Below are positions 2,046 to 47,419 of a stretch of DNA of 64,000 nucleotides, one piece after another. The DNA is from Mucilaginibacter sabulilitoris (GTDB lineage: Bacteria > Bacteroidota > Bacteroidia > Sphingobacteriales > Sphingobacteriaceae), in assembly GCF_034262375.1 (NCBI RefSeq), contig NZ_CP139558.1, forward strand, positions 2,666,001-2,730,000, read 5' to 3'. Within the stretch, counting starts at the first letter, position 1, and each line of letters begins with the position of its first letter. A program made the translations under genes and the position numbers. Under the pieces are notes generated by a model. The model had not been told where the DNA came from. It did no database searches and saw only the letters and a program-made list of their open reading frames with translations.

Positions 2046-2548
2046 AATCATTGATTTATTAGGAGGAAGCCCAAACATATCAAAAATAAATTTATACATT
2101 CTACTGAACTGACACTATAAATAACATATAATCAGGTAGGTAGTATTCAGTCCACGGTTGATGTTATCACCGCACCTTATAATATACCCCGGCGCCGGAG
2201 TTGACCTGGGAACCGGACCAGGCTCGATTTTGTATGTAATTTAAAACAGGCTGATCATTAGGATTATAATTAAATAAAGGATAAATTTAGTTCAGCAAGT
2301 CTTTCTGCCAAAAGAAAAAGAATGTATCATAACATTGGCTGCCCGTTTCGTCCCTGACTTTGTCTTGTTCAGTTATTTCGTCAGCATTTTCCGGCAGCAG
2401 CCGCAATACCTTTGCTTTAGAAGTTGAGAAATCTTGAAAGTGGCCGTCTGGAATGAATATTTAAAGATGTTTTTGTCCAATAAATAACCCGTTGGTCACT
2501 TCCTGATTAATACACAAGGAAATAGAAACTATTAAAAAATCAAAGACA
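2046..2548. other. Intergenic region between divergent genes
   Basis: About 500 bases separating the GH2 gene and the nitrilase gene, so it should hold both promoters, but no convincing TTTG/TAnnTTTG pair or hairpin was seen. It contains at 2163-2181 a 19-base string (gttatcaccgcaccttata) that recurs with one difference at 51259-51277, in another intergenic region. Confidence 0.4.
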
Positions 2549-3550
2549 ATGGAAAATCTCAATAAATCAGGCAGTTCAAAAACTGTAAAGGTTGCTGCCG
2601 TACAAATCAGCCCTGTATTGTACAGCCGGCAAGGAACTGTTGAAAAGGTTATCAATAGGATTAAAGAACTGGGTGCAAAAGGAGTAGAGTTTGCTACTTT
2701 CCCCGAAACAATTATACCTTATTATCCATATTTCTCTTTTATACAGGCACCGTATGCTATGGGAAAAGAGCATCAACGCTTAATGGACGAGGCAATTGTG
2801 GTTCCTTCGGCCGAGACCCAGGCTATTGGCGAAGCTGCCAGGCAGGCCGGCATGGTAGTTTCGATTGGTGTAAACGAACGCGACGGTGGATCAATATACA
2901 ATACACAGCTGCTATTTGATGCTGATGGAACTTTGATTCAGCGCAGGCGCAAGCTTACACCTACCTACCATGAAAAAATGGTATGGGGACAGGGAGATGC
3001 ATCAGGTTTGCGTGCCATAGATAGCAACGTGGGCCGTATCGGACAGTTGGCATGCTGGGAGCATTACAATCCGTTATTCCGTTATGCCCTGATCGCTGAT
3101 GGAGAACAAATACACTCTGCGATGTATCCCGGATCTTTCTTAGGGCCATTACACAGTGAGCAGACAGAGATCAATGTCCGCCAACACGCCCTGGAGTCGG
3201 CATGTTTTGTGGTATGCGCTACGGGGTGGCTAACCCCGGAACAACAGGCACAAATTGCCAAAGATACCGGCGGCCCGATAGGCCCTATCTCTGGTGGTTG
3301 CTTTACTGCGATTATAGGACCAGATGGGCAGATTATCGGTGAGCCTTTAAAATCAGGAGAAGGTGAAGTAATTGCCGATCTGGATTTTGCATTGATTGAT
3401 GCACGCAAGCGTTTGATGGATAGCAATGGTCATTATAGCCGCCCGGAATTGCTAAGTCTGAACATTGACCGCACCCCGGCAGTTCATGTACATGATCGTA
3501 TGATTAGTAGTGAAATGATTGCTAATCAGGTTCAAAATATAGCTGAGTAA
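2549..3550 (+). CDS. Nitrilase (carbon-nitrogen hydrolase)
   Basis: Branch-1 nitrilase, expected to hydrolyse an organic nitrile to its carboxylate and ammonia in the cytoplasm. The catalytic triad is complete: Glu53 ([10 protein letters not shown]), Lys135 ([13 protein letters not shown]) and Cys169 ([12 protein letters not shown]). The CWEHYNPL context is that of true nitrilases rather than amidases or Nit1/Nit2 proteins, and 333 residues is the usual length. No signal peptide. It is monocistronic and convergent with the operon at 3666-5448, whose last gene is an HD protein of the cyanamide hydratase type, so both flank one terminator. Aliphatic, aryl or arylaceto specificity cannot be read from the sequence. 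Confidence 0.93.
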
Positions 3551-41236: not shown

Positions 41237-42667
41237 ATGAGCGTACAAAAATTTTTCGTTTTTGTTATTATGGGGTCGTGCATCGCTTTGTTAAGCTGCA
41301 GTAAAGCAAAATACACCCCGCCGGATACTGCCAATGCTGATGCCGTCAGTAAGGCACAGGCTGTATTACGAACCGCAACTCCATCCGACAATGACCTTGC
41401 CAATCTGGCTTATTCTTCGTTTAACGCAGCCTGCTTAAATCCAAACACTAATTTATATTATAACAATACCAACAAGGATGGTATAGCTGCCATCTGGACG
41501 CAGGCCATTTACTGGGATATGGCCATGGACGTTTATAACCGCACCAAAAAGGCATCGCAGCTTGCTTTTCTAAACGCCATGTACCAGGGCGGCTTTAACC
41601 AGTACGATGGCTATAACTGGAACAATACCACTACCTGGTTTATTTATGACGATATGATGTGGTGGATCATGGCCCTGGCCCGTGCCAACCAGCTTACCGG
41701 GAACGCTACTTATCTGCAAAAAGCCAAAGAAGGTTTCGACCATGTTTGGGCCGGCTCTTATGACCCTGCTGATGGTGGTATGTTTTGGGATTTTAACCAC
41801 AGCGGTAAAAACTCGTGCATCAACTTCCCTACTGTTATAGCAGCCATGCGCTTGTATAAAGTAACAGGGGATAAAGCTTATTTAAACAAGGCACAATCTA
41901 TTTACACATGGTCAAAAGCCAACCTTACGAATGCCGCTACCGGGCAGGTTTATGATAATAAGATAGGGAGTAATCCTCCGGGCGGCCAGGCTTATACCTA
42001 CAATGCCGGTACGGCCATAGGGGCGGCCTACGCGCTTTATAAGCAATCAAAAAACAGCGCTTATCTGGAAGATGCAAAACGATATGCCGATTACGTAAAA
42101 AATAACTTATGCACCGACGGTATCTTGCCTGCCGAAGGCGACTTTAACGAGCAAGGCGTAATGAAAGCCATATTTGCCGATTACATGATGCAACTGATTA
42201 ACGAGGGCGGACAAACCCAGTATTTAAGCTGGATCAAAGGCAATATCACTACCGGCTGGTTAAACCGCGACAGGGTCCGCAACCTTACTTATCGCAATTA
42301 TGCCATAACCTGCCCTACAGGTTACATACAATCGTACGAGGCCAGCAGCCTGGTAACCTTTATGCAGCTGTATCCGGGGAAGGATTGCCTGTTCCCGGCC
42401 GGGGTAACTTTTTATGCCAATACCATGTATGGCGGCGCAAGTACAAAGCCTATACCTAAGGGGAGCTATACTTTAGCACAGTTGAAAAAATTTGGCTTTG
42501 CCGATGACTGGGCATCTTCGGCCAGCGTACCCGACGGTTGGAAGGTAACTATGTACAGCGAGGACAACTTTCAGGGTACCTCATGGCAGCTCAATGCCGA
42601 TACACCGCATTTCCCCAATCTTTCGCCTACGGCTAATGATGTAGTATCGTCGGTTAAGATAGAATGA
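41237..42667 (+). CDS. GH76 lipoprotein with C-terminal beta/gamma-crystallin domain
   Basis: 476 residues. The N-terminus is a lipoprotein signal with lipobox LLSC (Cys21). Residues about 50-370 form the (alpha/alpha)6 barrel of GH76 endo-alpha-1,6-mannanases; the catalytic Asp pair is in TTWFIYDDMMWWIMALARA (Asp138-Asp139). The C-terminal 90 residues (GVTFYANTMYGGAS to VVSSVKIE) are a beta/gamma-crystallin repeat, with SEDNFQGTSWQL as its strand-turn motif; such domains often bind calcium. Likely attached to the outer membrane and acts on yeast- or fungal-type mannans or bacterial mannan-like walls. It stands alone with a strong terminator behind it (42682-42711). Confidence 0.9.
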   Translation: MSVQKFFVFVIMGSCIALLSCSKAKYTPPDTANADAVSKAQAVLRTATPSDNDLANLAYSSFNAACLNPNTNLYYNNTNKDGIAAIWTQAIYWDMAMDVYNRTKKASQLAFLNAMYQGGFNQYDGYNWNNTTTWFIYDDMMWWIMALARANQLTGNATYLQKAKEGFDHVWAGSYDPADGGMFWDFNHSGKNSCINFPTVIAAMRLYKVTGDKAYLNKAQSIYTWSKANLTNAATGQVYDNKIGSNPPGGQAYTYNAGTAIGAAYALYKQSKNSAYLEDAKRYADYVKNNLCTDGILPAEGDFNEQGVMKAIFADYMMQLINEGGQTQYLSWIKGNITTGWLNRDRVRNLTYRNYAITCPTGYIQSYEASSLVTFMQLYPGKDCLFPAGVTFYANTMYGGASTKPIPKGSYTLAQLKKFGFADDWASSASVPDGWKVTMYSEDNFQGTSWQLNADTPHFPNLSPTANDVVSSVKIE

Positions 42668-42681
42668 TTTTTTGTAGAGTT

Positions 42682-42711
42682 AACAAGCCCCCGCTGCAGC
42701 GGGGGCTTGTT
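42682..42711. terminator. Palindromic terminator after the GH76 gene
   Basis: Perfect 30-base palindrome (42682-42711, centre ctg/cag) followed by gttttt. Symmetric, so it could stop transcription from either side. Confidence 0.85.
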
Positions 42712-42767
42712 GGTTTTTCGGGGTTGGGATGCGGTGATACAACAATAGGTTTTCGGAAGAAAAAGGG

Positions 42768-42877
42768 TGTCATTTCGACAAGGTACGAGGAGAAATCCTA
42801 TAGATATTGCAAATTCGTTTTGTGAGGCATATAAGATTTCTCTTTCGCACAACGCTCATACCCACCCATGCTCTCTC
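42768..42877. repeat. REP-like repeat, interrupted by the IS110 element
   Basis: An imperfect inverted repeat: tgtcatttcgac...gaggagaaatc (42768-42802) and gatttctctttcgcac...ctctctc (42830-42877). Its outer end should read gaaatgacaa, and exactly that is found on the far side of the element at 44185-44194. So the IS110 element split this palindrome near one tip. Another related copy lies at 60427-60508. Confidence 0.75.
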
Positions 42878-42889
42878 GATTTCTATGAT

Positions 42890-43897
42890 TTAAGCAACTA
42901 ATTTCTGATAATTTTTTTCGTAAGGTCTGTTTTGGTTGACGCAGGCGAAAAGGCGTAATATGAGTTTGTTCCTAACGGCATTAATGACACTCATTTTATT
43001 CTTTTTTTCCTGCAATACCTTTCGTTGGTAAAAGCGTTTTAGATCTTGGTTATGCTGTATAGCAACTATGGCTGCAAGATGTAGGAGCGTTTTTACTTTT
43101 TTGTTGGCCATATGCGATACCCTGGCCTTTTTAACAACCTTACCGGAGTTATCTGTAAAAGGTGCTACGCCTGAATAACAAGCGAACTTTTTAGGGTCGC
43201 TAATGTCCTTGAATTCGTTGGTAGTAACAATGACCTGAACGGCAGTTACTTTGCCAATGCCGCTTACTGAGGTTGCCAGTTTGAATATCCGGGTTAATTC
43301 TTTGTCCGCTTTAATAATTTCTTCTATAGCCCGCTCTGTCCTGGCTATGTCGCTTTCGATCGCCTTTAAGGAATGACTGCAGGCTTGTAGGTTCTGCTTG
43401 CTGGTTTTGCCGGGACTGAAAGACGCATGCTCTTTTAGTGGCACTTTCAATTGTTTTTTAACAGTTATCAACCGTAACCGGGTAGCTGCAAGATGGGCAA
43501 GTTGCTGCACAGCTTCGCGCTTAGGCTCCCATAAGCGCAGCCCTTCGCGCTCCTTATAAGCATACCAGGCGATACGCATGGCATCTACCTTGTCATTCTT
43601 GCCCCGGATATTCCCTAATGAGTTCTTGATCTGGGTAGCCGCTTCTAAGCAAATGTGTGCCTTCTTTTTATGCAGGCAAGCCAAAGCATGGTTGTTATAA
43701 ATGCCGGTATGCTCCATGCAGAAAATAGCTTTGCTTAAGCTGAACCCAGGAAGTTTTCCCAACTCCTTGAGAAATGTATTGATTGCTGCCGGAGCGTTAG
43801 CAATTTCCTGGTGGAATAGAAACCGGCTGCCTTGCTGAACAGCAAAGTCCAATTCGTTTTTGGACACATCGATACCAATGAAAAATTCAAATTCCAT
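42890..43897 (-). CDS. IS110-family transposase (recombinase)
   Basis: 335 residues of the DEDD-Ser IS110 type. The N-terminal RuvC-like domain begins FFIGIDVSKNELDFAVQQG with the first Asp, and Glu in AIFCMEHTGIYNN. The coiled segment LKAIESDIARTERAIEEI follows, then the C-terminal Transposase_20 domain with the catalytic Ser region (LATSVSGIGKVTAVQVIVTTN and FACYSGVAPFTDNSGK). It appears full length. Works with a bridge RNA transcribed from the element's own left end (44184 down to 43898) to pair donor and target. Confidence 0.93.
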   Translation of the reverse strand: MEFEFFIGIDVSKNELDFAVQQGSRFLFHQEIANAPAAINTFLKELGKLPGFSLSKAIFCMEHTGIYNNHALACLHKKKAHICLEAATQIKNSLGNIRGKNDKVDAMRIAWYAYKEREGLRLWEPKREAVQQLAHLAATRLRLITVKKQLKVPLKEHASFSPGKTSKQNLQACSHSLKAIESDIARTERAIEEIIKADKELTRIFKLATSVSGIGKVTAVQVIVTTNEFKDISDPKKFACYSGVAPFTDNSGKVVKKARVSHMANKKVKTLLHLAAIVAIQHNQDLKRFYQRKVLQEKKNKMSVINAVRNKLILRLFACVNQNRPYEKNYQKLVA

Positions 43898-43933
43898 ATC
43901 TTTACCCTGTTTATGTTAGTAAACAGTTAACAT

Positions 43934-44077
43934 GTTTTAAACTACATCAATTCCTTACTAATGAGCCTCGTAAACTCTAATTTCTATTTGATGCCACAGT
44001 TTAAAACAAGCGGTAAAGGAGTAAATCGAACGATAGGCCTACATGCCTGGAAATGACAATAATGCGCCTTTACCGCT
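43934..44077 (-). ncRNA. Predicted bridge RNA of the IS110 element (two guide loops)
   Basis: In transcript order (44077 to 43934): first hairpin, 11-bp perfect stem (44067-44077 with 44009-44019) holding a 47-base loop; second hairpin, 10-bp stem (43998-44007 with 43934-43943), asymmetric bulge and 6-bp stem (43988-43993 with 43945-43950) holding a 37-base loop. Loop 1 contains ttgtcatttcc (44059-44049), identical to the 11 bases outside the left end (44194-44184), and cgttcga, which pairs with tcgagag of the right flank except one base. Loop 2 contains atagaaat (43987-43980), identical to the right end (42886-42879), and aagga, complementary to tcctt at the left end. This is the target- and donor-binding loop layout known for IS621. 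Transcript ends are unknown; a further hairpin at 44135-44174 may be part of it. Confidence 0.72.
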
Positions 44078-44134
44078 GTTAACTTTATCCACAAAATCTA
44101 AGGTTATTAACAAAGAAAAAGAAGCAAAAAGAAA

Positions 44135-44174
44135 GCTTCAACAATAATAATAACCCTTATTATCTTGTTGAAGC
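44135..44174 (-). ncRNA. Stem-loop near the IS110 left end
   Basis: Ten-base perfect arms (44135-44144 and 44165-44174) plus an inner six-base stem. It lies upstream of the two guide loops and would be the 5' stem-loop of a bridge RNA if transcription starts beyond it. Confidence 0.5.
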
Positions 44175-44255
44175 TAATCTAAAGGAAATGACAAGATTTT
44201 TTCTTCCGAATATGTATGGTGAAAATGCTGACTATAAGATCAACTATTAAACATT

Positions 44256-44969
44256 TTAAGCATGTTTAAGCTGATTTAACTTTCTAAAAACCGCTGTGTG
44301 TAAAAATAAAATAGTCGCAGGTGCAAAAGCGGGGAACCAAACAAACGGAAATACGGTCACTTCCCGGAGGTTTCCATTGGCGCCGATAGTAACCGCAATC
44401 ACAAGCAGATCAATAATGTCCATGATGCCGAAAATGTTCCAGGCGTAAACGGCCGGTTTGCTCCATGACTTTCCCTTTGAAACCATTTTTGCCACCGGGA
44501 TTGCCAGAATCGCGGTAATGATATCTCCCAATCCGGCAAAAAAAGCAAATTTCGTGGGCAAAAGGTGATAGCAATAAAGCAAGATGAAAAACACACCGAG
44601 AATGCGGAATACATGCACGGCTATCAGCGATTCCAATGAAATTGACCTGAGTAAAGTTTTAAATAACCTGGTATTTCCAATAAAACCGAATAAGATGATG
44701 GTTAACGGCATACCAGCCCAAACCATCACTTTGGGCGGCAAAGAATTAACATCAAACGTTCCTTTCAAAGCAAACACGGAAACATAAATAAGATAGGCAA
44801 GGTAAAAAGCAACAATACCAATCTGGATGTTGGTTGATTTTCGAGCCGTCATACCGACGTTGAGCGCTGCCTGTTTTACCGGTTTGGTAATGAAAACTAC
44901 GGAATAAAGAAAACTTGCAATAAATAGTACGATGGCCCAAATGGGCATGTGGGATATGTGATTTGTCAT
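44256..44969 (-). CDS. Hypothetical seven-helix membrane protein
   Basis: 237 residues with about seven hydrophobic segments (IWAIVLFIASFLYSVVFI; IGIVAFYLAYLIYVSVFAL; VMVWAGMPLTIILFGFIG; HVFRILGVFFILLYCY; FFAGLGDIITAILAIPVAK; FGIMDIIDLLVIAVTIG; FVWFPAFAPATILFLHT). I do not recognise the family. No signal peptide beyond the first helix, no obvious catalytic motif. It ends 61 bases from the insertion boundary of the IS110 element (44195) but is not disrupted by it. Divergent from the serine hydrolase remnant at 45147. Confidence 0.75.
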   Translation of the reverse strand: MTNHISHMPIWAIVLFIASFLYSVVFITKPVKQAALNVGMTARKSTNIQIGIVAFYLAYLIYVSVFALKGTFDVNSLPPKVMVWAGMPLTIILFGFIGNTRLFKTLLRSISLESLIAVHVFRILGVFFILLYCYHLLPTKFAFFAGLGDIITAILAIPVAKMVSKGKSWSKPAVYAWNIFGIMDIIDLLVIAVTIGANGNLREVTVFPFVWFPAFAPATILFLHTAVFRKLNQLKHA

Positions 44970-45684: not shown

Positions 45685-47419
45685 GAGGGCACTGAAAAAG
45701 TAGTGCAATAAAACGTATTACGAAAAGCGATCAAGAGAAAAGGCAACTTTTACTTGGTCGCTTTTTTGTTCTGATTGCTTTGTGTGGGTGATTTAATGTG
45801 GATAATACGGGCCTATAGGAGTTTGGGGAGTGCAAAAAACGGCTAAATACCTCTTTTTATTGTTTTTTAGGCGATCAGTTTGATGATCCTTTTCAGATTG
45901 ACAGTAAAGATGGCCAATGCGCCCTGCATCTGCATGTTTTCGATACCATAAGCTATCGCCCGGTCATAACCATGAACGTTTTTTAGTTCACTGTTTTTGG
46001 CTTCGATCTTATACCTGTGTTTGATGCTTTCCTTATATTGTGTCGTTTCCTGAAAAGCCATCTGTTGTTGGTGCAGGTCTGACTTTATGCTTACAGAATA
46101 GGTCTTGGTTTTTGCCCCAGGTTTGTAGCAACCCTCCCTAAATGGGCAGATTTTGCATTTTTCAACATCAAAGTAATACGTGTCTGTCTGATTTGTTCCA
46201 ACGTTCTTTTTTCCCTGTCTTGATTTTCGTATGGACAAATGCCCTGCAGGGCAAACGAACATATCAGCGTCTTTGTTATAATCGAACTTATCTTCTTCTT
46301 TTCTAAACCCCTGGGTAATGGTTGGGTTTAGTTTGGCTACCACCTTAATATCCTGTCCGTTCATTAACGCAAGGTTCTCTTTTCCTGAATAAGCCGAATC
46401 GCCGATGATCCTTTCTACTTCAATGCCGTTGTTCTGACTGATCTCCAGAAGCTTGGGAAGTTCCGGCCCATCACCTTTTTCACCTGATGTTACTACCGCA
46501 GCGGTAATGATGCGTTCCTCTGTCATCGCCAGATGGGTCTTATAACCAAAGAATGAGCTATCAGCTGATTTATGGCCGGTTTTGGCATCCTTGTCTTTAG
46601 ATACTATATAGTGCTCCTGAGTATCTGCTACTGTCTCTTTCAATAGATTCAGTTTTTCTTTTACCGCAGGTATCTGGCATAACGGTTGATCGGCTTCAAT
46701 ATACTTTTCCAATGCACTGCAATAAGCCAGTTCTTTTTCCAATTCGTCGGCTGTGTTCTTTTCGGGCATGCCTGCCTTCATATCTTCATCTATCGCATAA
46801 ACAGCTTTGCGGAGTAACTTTGAACGTTCCCGTAATACTTCCAATGCTGAATACGGGTTGGATCTCGACAGGGAATGGGTAGCATCAACAATAATGGATT
46901 TTGAGCGGATGAGCCCTTTTTCAATAGCTATGGTCACCGTTTTACCAATAAGCAGGTTTAACAGATCATTATCCTTTAGCCGCAGCTTTCTGAACTTGGT
47001 CAATGAACTCGGATCGATCATTCCTTCTTCCGGTGACATATCCAGGAAATATTTGAACGACATATCATACTGCGAACGCTCAACAACATCTACATCTGAA
47101 ACCGTATAGATCGTTTTCAACAACAGATACTTGAACATCCGTACAGGGCTTTCTGCTGCCCGGCCGTTAGTAATGCTGTATTTGCTGATCAGTTCATCAT
47201 AGATAAAGGTAAAATCTACCAGGTCATTGATCTTCCGCAGAAGATTGTCTTTAGGAACGATCAGGTCATATAAGCCCGAAAACGCGCTAAAATGGATCTT
47301 TTGTTGTTGAACGAGCATTTTGTAGTGGCTTTCTTTTGACACTTCAAGATACAAAAAAAGGGGTTGAAAAACTAATTTTTCAACCCCGTTTTGCCTATTT
47401 AGACTTTTTCAGTGCCCTC
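45685..47419 (-). mobile_element. IS1182-family insertion sequence
   Basis: 1735-bp element with perfect 17-base terminal inverted repeats (gagggcactgaaaaagt) and an 8-bp target duplication attgagta at 45677-45684 and 47420-47427. The transposase covers 45867-47318. The left 180 bases are non-coding. It splits the ECF sigma gene in the opposite orientation. The repeats and transposase look intact, so the insertion may be recent. Confidence 0.95.
45867..47318 (-). CDS. IS1182-family transposase
   Basis: About 483 residues from ATG 47318 (MLVQQQKIHFSAF). The N-terminal DUF772 region reads RKINDLVDFTFIYDELISKYS...RAAESPVRMFKYLLLK; the DDE core follows: Asp in IIVDATHSLSR, Asp in IIGDSAYSGKEN, and Glu in YKIEAKNSELKN near the C-terminus. 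A Cys-rich stretch (CKICPFREGC) typical of the family is present. An upstream start at 47354 would run into the terminal repeat, so 47318 is preferred. Intact. Confidence 0.93.
   Translation of the reverse strand: MLVQQQKIHFSAFSGLYDLIVPKDNLLRKINDLVDFTFIYDELISKYSITNGRAAESPVRMFKYLLLKTIYTVSDVDVVERSQYDMSFKYFLDMSPEEGMIDPSSLTKFRKLRLKDNDLLNLLIGKTVTIAIEKGLIRSKSIIVDATHSLSRSNPYSALEVLRERSKLLRKAVYAIDEDMKAGMPEKNTADELEKELAYCSALEKYIEADQPLCQIPAVKEKLNLLKETVADTQEHYIVSKDKDAKTGHKSADSSFFGYKTHLAMTEERIITAAVVTSGEKGDGPELPKLLEISQNNGIEVERIIGDSAYSGKENLALMNGQDIKVVAKLNPTITQGFRKEEDKFDYNKDADMFVCPAGHLSIRKSRQGKKNVGTNQTDTYYFDVEKCKICPFREGCYKPGAKTKTYSVSIKSDLHQQQMAFQETTQYKESIKHRYKIEAKNSELKNVHGYDRAIAYGIENMQMQGALAIFTVNLKRIIKLIA

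Follow-up and report, generated by a model that had tools for sequence, protein, structure and literature searches.

Does the non-coding left end of an IS110-like element in Mucilaginibacter sabulilitoris encode a bridge RNA, and can the DNA sites that such an RNA would join be read from its loops? The element lies in a 64,000-nt window of the genome (the whole stretch of DNA analysed), in which a sequence-only reading had described two large-loop hairpins with target and donor guides at positions 43934-44077. We consider it very probable that this is an insertion sequence of the IS110 group and that a bridge RNA with two loops is encoded in its non-coding left end. The features that bear on this reading are collected in Table 1.

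Table 1. Features of the element, the predicted RNA and the insertion site, in window positions
Feature	Position	Strand	Support
Complete IS110-group element, 1307 bp, with the right-end core TC	42878-44184	-	Four genome copies with the same ends and different flanks
Left target, TTGTCATT before core TC	44187-44194	-	All four copies preceded by GTCATTTC, with an additional C in one
Right target and remainder of the palindromic repeat that was hit; far end TCGAAATGACA on the minus strand	42759-42877	-	Joined flanks read by eye
Recombinase gene, 335 aa; DEDD residues D10, E62, D102, D105 and Tnp serine S251	42890-43897	-	PF01548 and PF02371 above cut-off
Probable bridge RNA core: outer closing helix, target-binding loop and donor-binding loop	43925-44084	-	Fold; 36 pairs counted in 20 sequences
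Predicted target-binding stem-loop, 11-bp stem, apical AGGC/GCCT hairpin	44009-44077	-	Helices 1 and 2 paired in 96.3% and 98.8% of cells
Left target guide TTGTCATTTC, identical to left flank with core	44050-44059	-	
Right target guide TATCGTTCGA, complement of TCGAACGATA	44026-44035	-	
Predicted donor-binding stem-loop with ATAGAAAT (43980-43987) and AAGGA (43952-43956)	43934-44007	-	Guides match the termini CATAGAAATC and CTTTAGAT by identity or complementarity
Long hairpin beside left terminus, followed by T-rich DNA	44134-44175	-	Fold -19.4 kcal/mol, z -3.94, 0/200 shuffles as good

The element, its ends and its recombinase

The host genome, a single contig of 7.55 Mb, carries four full copies of the element, 99-100% identical over 1318-1326 bases, as well as one short fragment. 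All four copies start with CTTTAGAT directly after GTCATTTC, with one extra C in the copy at L009, and all four end with CATAGAAATC followed by GA. Since these ends are shared and the four flanks differ, the ends and the core are fixed without any assumption about an RNA. The TC core at 42878-42879 and 44185-44186, the latter being the core left by the target at the element's left end, was re-derived as the sequence-only reading had it. The near-identity of the four copies argues for recent movement, and the element is probably active. At the left junction of the L009 copy, GTCATTTCC, with the extra C, precedes CTTTAGAT; since C is also the next base of the left guide in the RNA, the core may have shifted or a small slip may have occurred. 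At another locus, L116, the left terminus CTTTAGATTAGCAG is present twice in tandem, 19 bases apart.

The recombinase gene leaves non-coding ends of 287 nt on the left and 12 nt on the right. Pfam matches to the protein (PF01548, 5.1e-17; PF02371, 9.9e-20) show a RuvC-like DEDD domain and a Tnp (Transposase_20) domain with its serine, the combination that defines the IS110 family of DEDD transposases. Residues 5-329 align nearly end to end with the solved transposases of IS621 (E 4.5e-16) and ISCro4 (E 1.7e-17). IS621 is described as needing D11, E60, D102, D105 and S241 (PMC11208158), which correspond to the five residues given in Table 1, and these are kept in 51/51 aligned proteins, own copies included. 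Within the family, the long left end with the RNA, the short right end and the lack of long subterminal inverted repeats place the element in the IS110 group. Membership in the IS1111 group was considered and rejected: inverted matches between the 60-base ends reach 6 bases at most, within the 5-9 given by 30 shuffles.

In the window, the element is flanked by a DDE transposase gene (45867-47354, minus strand; PF13751, PF05598) and a glycoside hydrolase family 76 gene (41237-42667, plus strand). Elsewhere in the host genome, eleven equal-score matches (L031-L041) belong to a different IS110-family gene with a 450-aa open frame, and a 57-aa open frame covering profile positions 5-53 is the remnant of another IS110-like gene (G000:C1:4757974-4758120; L042, L010).

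A predicted two-loop RNA and its guides

The minus strand of 43910-44100 folds at -51.6 kcal/mol (z -3.42, 2/200 shuffles as good). In the predicted fold, stem 1 has the 11 bp that had been claimed for it (44067-44077 with 44009-44019), whereas stem 2 has 11+7 bp instead of 10+6. The stretch 43934-44077 does hold both loops, but the RNA is longer than that, since an outer helix of AGTTAAC (44078-44084) with GTTAACT (43925-43931) encloses them. Using a script that takes the longest stem between the two outer arms, we found this helix or an altered form of it in 15/20 sequences, both sides being altered in L081 (AGATTAAAC with GTTTAATCT) and in L112, L116 and L117 (GGTTAAC with GTTAACC); in L080, L053, L083, L084 and L086 the script chose another pair.

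Across 20 distinct sequences the RNA stems covary. Of the cells for the 36 named pairs, 94.8% are paired, as against 25-52% for control structures slid along the alignment, a comparison that favours the real structure in so far as it was derived from the first sequence. Changes on both sides were seen at 16 pairs (10.1 in shuffles) and in 73 cells (24.2 in shuffles), while the number of further pair types in these 20 sequences and 36 pairs was not above shuffles (28 vs 28.1). What is conserved as RNA structure is thus a pair of stem-loops with internal loops. A search with Rfam at the gathering threshold returned two tRNAs for the whole window and no family for this RNA; for 42600-44500, 18 matches up to E 10 were all under their own gathering scores.

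The RNA is presumably transcribed. The long hairpin between it and the left terminus, whose arms look alike by eye in relatives, is probably terminator-like or insulating, and was absent from the output of the terminator scan. It may block transcription from outside, in which case the conserved block 44092-44134 may contain a promoter for the RNA itself. A sigma-70 promoter scan, of a kind that does not cover Bacteroidota promoters, gave 3 matches in the region (shuffle mean 3.9).

The two guides of loop 1, separated by the apical hairpin, stand in the order TTGTCATTTC, hairpin, TATCGTTCGA. The loop contains TTGTCATTTCC, all eleven bases of which had been equated with the left boundary; the bases are indeed identical, but only ten of them correspond to the target flank with the core, the last C being the element's own first base. 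On the other side, the claimed pairing of CGUUCGA with TCGAGAG at six of seven positions, one of them G-U, was re-derived from the sequence. The target had also been read from the right flank of this copy, and this did not hold: judged from the guides, the target that the RNA codes is TTGTCATTTCGAACGATA with core TC, and it is to be read from the RNA, the right flank here fitting the right guide at only 4/6 positions past the core. The right guide is loosely matched in three of the four host-genome copies (L006, 4; L007, 2; L009, 4 of 6). For loop 2, we arrived at the same guides as before, ATAGAAAT, equal to the right terminus, and AAGGA, complementary to TCCTT at the left terminus. These donor guides fit the element's ends, and both the donor loop and the termini are nearly invariant among relatives, so that the pairing is consistent and carries no covariation signal.

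Together these features suggest how the element could move. The two guides of loop 1 spell the insertion site, the left half as an identical and the right half as a complementary sequence, sharing a core with C as its second base, and the two guides of loop 2 fit the element's own ends. By analogy with IS621, the recombinase would bind the RNA, and a circular form of the element with the junction CATAGAAA-TC-CTTTAGAT would be cut beside the core via the recombinase serine. The target would likewise be cut next to the core through the serine, and joined to the element without target duplication.

Insertion sites, guides in relatives and known systems

When the flanks of inserted copies were joined, a 19-bp palindrome arm ran across the junction at L007, with its partner 122 bases on, and arms of 11-18 bases were found at L104, L105, L108, L110 and L115. 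Arms above 10 bases were thus present in 6/25 tested cases, the other 19 giving at most 10 bases and 15 of these none, all as raw counts without a chance control; L078, whose right end is not intact, was left out. In this exact-match test the copy in the window had no junction-spanning repeat. Precise joining is shown, at the level of the joined flanks, where a palindrome arm is restored. By eye, about 9 of 12 unoccupied exact TGTCATTTCGA sites are ends of such palindromic repeats; the left half of the coded target TTGTCATTTCGAACGATA marks ends of dispersed palindromic repeats in the host genome. One repeat used as query gave 29 matches at E up to 10, six of them (itself included) below 0.01. 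Over-representation of the target word in the genome was not borne out, with 12 occurrences of TGTCATTTCGA vs 6 of the reversed control and 63 of GTCATTTCG vs 104 in the control. Use of repetitive extragenic palindromes is also reported for other insertion sequences (PMC1525189).

If the loops act as guides, those of related elements should follow their own flanks, a check that the sequence-only reading had proposed. We compared 27 copies (4 own, 23 from other genomes), of which 25 have a left flank; merged by guide, they give 16 left and 14 right types, and on the whole the loops do follow. Left guides match their own flanks at 6.10 of 8 positions (2.41 when shuffled) and right guides at 4.46 of 6 (2.09), with 0/100,000 shuffles as high on either side, a figure that is not a strict probability since the copies are related by descent. 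The own flank was best or tied best for 12/16 left and 12/14 right guide types. At least 6 of 8 positions matched on 18/25 left sides and at least 5 of 6 on 19/27 right sides. The misses were 7/25 left sides with at most 5 of 8 (L009, L110, L113, L114, L078, L083 and L086), among which L009, L110, L114 and L078 have a change in junction length or damage by eye, and 8/27 right sides with at most 4 of 6.

Individual loci illustrate how far the guides have diverged together with their sites. The left guide and the left flank are both GTCATCTC at L109, GTCATTGC at L108, TTAACTTAC at L115 and ACACCAAC at L080, and the guide TTCGTTCCTC at L053 equals its own flank. On the right, a guide ending CCTCGA stands with TCGAGG at L108, ACTTCGA with TCGAAGT at L115, CCTTTGA with TCAAAGG at L080, and GGACGGA with TCCGTCC at both L084 and L086. 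Even in a Ferruginibacter record with a recombinase 42% identical (L089), guide and flank are both AGACCAGGC. Target guides covary with the genomic target, and common descent alone would hardly produce guides that change with the flanks in many branches. Relatives with an intact left junction always have C as second core base; the first differs from element to element, both in the target and in the left guide, and in the target it is often not T (L108 and L110 have G, L080 and L115 have A). Because of this variable first base, one shared TC core is not a rule among the relatives. Plasmid records gave eight relatives at 34-44% identity, and viral contigs none.

These comparisons bear on the ways in which the left end could be read otherwise. 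Each single guide is short (5-10 bases), so chance hairpins with chance short matches have to be considered; we give this a negligible probability in view of the 0/100,000 shuffles, the covarying stems and the same target word at all four copies. The matches exceed chance because three further copies share the left target word and the guides follow the flanks in relatives. It is also very improbable that the protein itself recognises palindromic repeats and that the resemblance of the loops is secondary. Several sites in the host and in related genomes are ends of palindromic repeats, as such recognition would have it, but guides and flanks change together, and L080, L084 and L089 match their left guides at 8, 7 and 8 of 8 positions despite longest exact junction-spanning inverted repeats of 10, 6 and 0 bases (an exact-match test, which leaves room for diverged repeats).

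A genuine bridge RNA by descent, in a copy that is now inactive and whose match is a relic of its last insertion, would account for the loose fit of the right guide to the flank of this copy. We regard this as unlikely, given that the open reading frame keeps all five catalytic residues and that the ends of the four near-identical copies are intact.

Bridge RNAs are reported as predicted in 85.7% of IS110-group elements (PMC11208160), and the Mucilaginibacter element therefore belongs to a described kind. The earlier suggestion that its RNA is probably undescribed holds for this element as far as the searches reached, with no Rfam family and no paper linking IS110 and Mucilaginibacter found in the literature search, but not for the kind. 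The main text of PMC11208160, as distinct from its supplementary tables, contains no mention of Bacteroid, Mucilaginibacter, Pedobacter or Spirosoma. As described for IS621 of E. coli (PMC11208160, PMC11208158), the RNA lies in the long left end and has two loops, target first and donor second; the left guide would pair with the bottom strand and the right guide with the top strand, both reaching into the core; and the recombinase has DEDD residues and a Tnp serine. Insertion into repetitive extragenic palindromes (PMC11208160) and a less conserved first core base (PMC11208158) are likewise reported for IS621, and the long left and short right non-coding ends are those of the IS110 group as described in PMC11208160.

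The differences from IS621 lie in the core (TC instead of CT), in the outer helix around both loops (a 5´ stem-loop is described for the IS621 consensus), and in the strong hairpin between left terminus and RNA, through which a promoter re-formed at the junction, as in IS621, would have to read. At the E value given above, the two recombinases are only distantly alike. The seekRNAs of ISEc21 and other IS1111-type elements are similar in that a long non-coding region yields an RNA with short stretches complementary to each target strand (PMC11187229). With reference to the same account, the RNA is upstream here, as in the IS110 type, and the element differs from the IS1111 type in lacking subterminal inverted repeats.

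Bridge-RNA guides thus appear to be readable from raw sequence in Bacteroidota. The naturally reprogrammed elements, with 16 left and 14 right guide types and known insertion sites, would form a ready test set for pairing rules, such as the fixed C at the second core position of intact junctions, the freedom of the first position, and, in the host genome, the looser fit of the right guide compared with the left. As with IS621 in E. coli, dispersed palindromic repeats have become the home of this element, but the phylum is a distant one and the repeats are different.

Stem-loop arrays beside a sister clade of recombinases

A search of the genus gave matches at E up to 1e-60 in 39/149 genomes. 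The loci retrieved include 24 distinct recombinases (46.5-54.7% identity to the query) without CATAGAAATC in the 110 bases after the gene. A single branch with a support of 99/100 separates these from 24 with such ends, in a tree with a midpoint root and with the clade labelled by the missing end, not by loop counts. Beside genes of this sister clade are stem-loop units that resemble half a bridge RNA, with an outer stem, a 5´ guide, a small apical hairpin and a 3´ guide. An automatic scan of 20 longer loci detected 35 units in the 31.4 kb adjoining the genes, where shuffles (n=20) gave a mean of 2.25 and a maximum of 5; farther from the genes in the same loci, it detected 5 units in 58.1 kb. 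Two or more units were present in 8 of the 20 loci, one in 5 and none in 7.

The most extended case is L125 (genome G028, C1:3877500-3885500). At positions 2500-3415 of this locus, directly upstream of a gene for a 369-aa IS110-like recombinase, five B and five A loops alternate, and a possible eleventh loop, seen by eye, stands before the ten. The five B loops have one common right guide and differ in the left, while the A loops differ in both; by eye, all ten are readable with a TC core. The stretch folds at z -9.29, with 0/20 shuffles as good, and has the look of a bridge-RNA array. Two to six loop units were found beside same-clade recombinases at L140, where two loop types alternate, and at L128, L124, L135, L137, L141, L131, L067 and L072, the last two by eye only.

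Searches in the loci themselves and in G028 identified no targets for the guides of these arrays. Of 44 units, two had a match of at least 85% in their own locus of 4.7-12 kb, one of which was the neighbouring unit. In G028, one word had 1 exact hit vs 0 in the control, but its left half did not fit, and two other words had 1 hit vs 2 and 9 vs 7 in the control. A Pfam scan of the nearest open frames of 9 loci revealed no constant neighbour gene, and our literature search, whose scope was papers other than preprints, turned up no recognisable report of such loop arrays.

As a tentative reading, which we hold to be possible rather than probable, the element in the window may stand for a branch of a Bacteroidota IS110 lineage that is mobile and has one guide, and from this lineage a resident sister clade may have become a guide-array system. 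There, one recombinase would work with several bridge-type loops (in L125 ten or possibly eleven), with guides that change while the genomic place stays. If so, a single recombinase could connect DNA sites in many pairings, serving rearrangement or defence, and such multi-loop recombinases would matter more than the single element. At L139 and L124, the upstream neighbours are 90% and the recombinases 80% alike, and the loop-bearing DNA between them does not align. IS110 bridge RNAs are described as a single two-stem unit in PMC12045711. TIGR-Tas arrays, as described in the same source, resemble the loop arrays in that a number of stem-loop units with two guide stretches accompany a single protein gene, but differ in the protein, which at the loop arrays is a full IS110-type recombinase with DEDD residues and serine.
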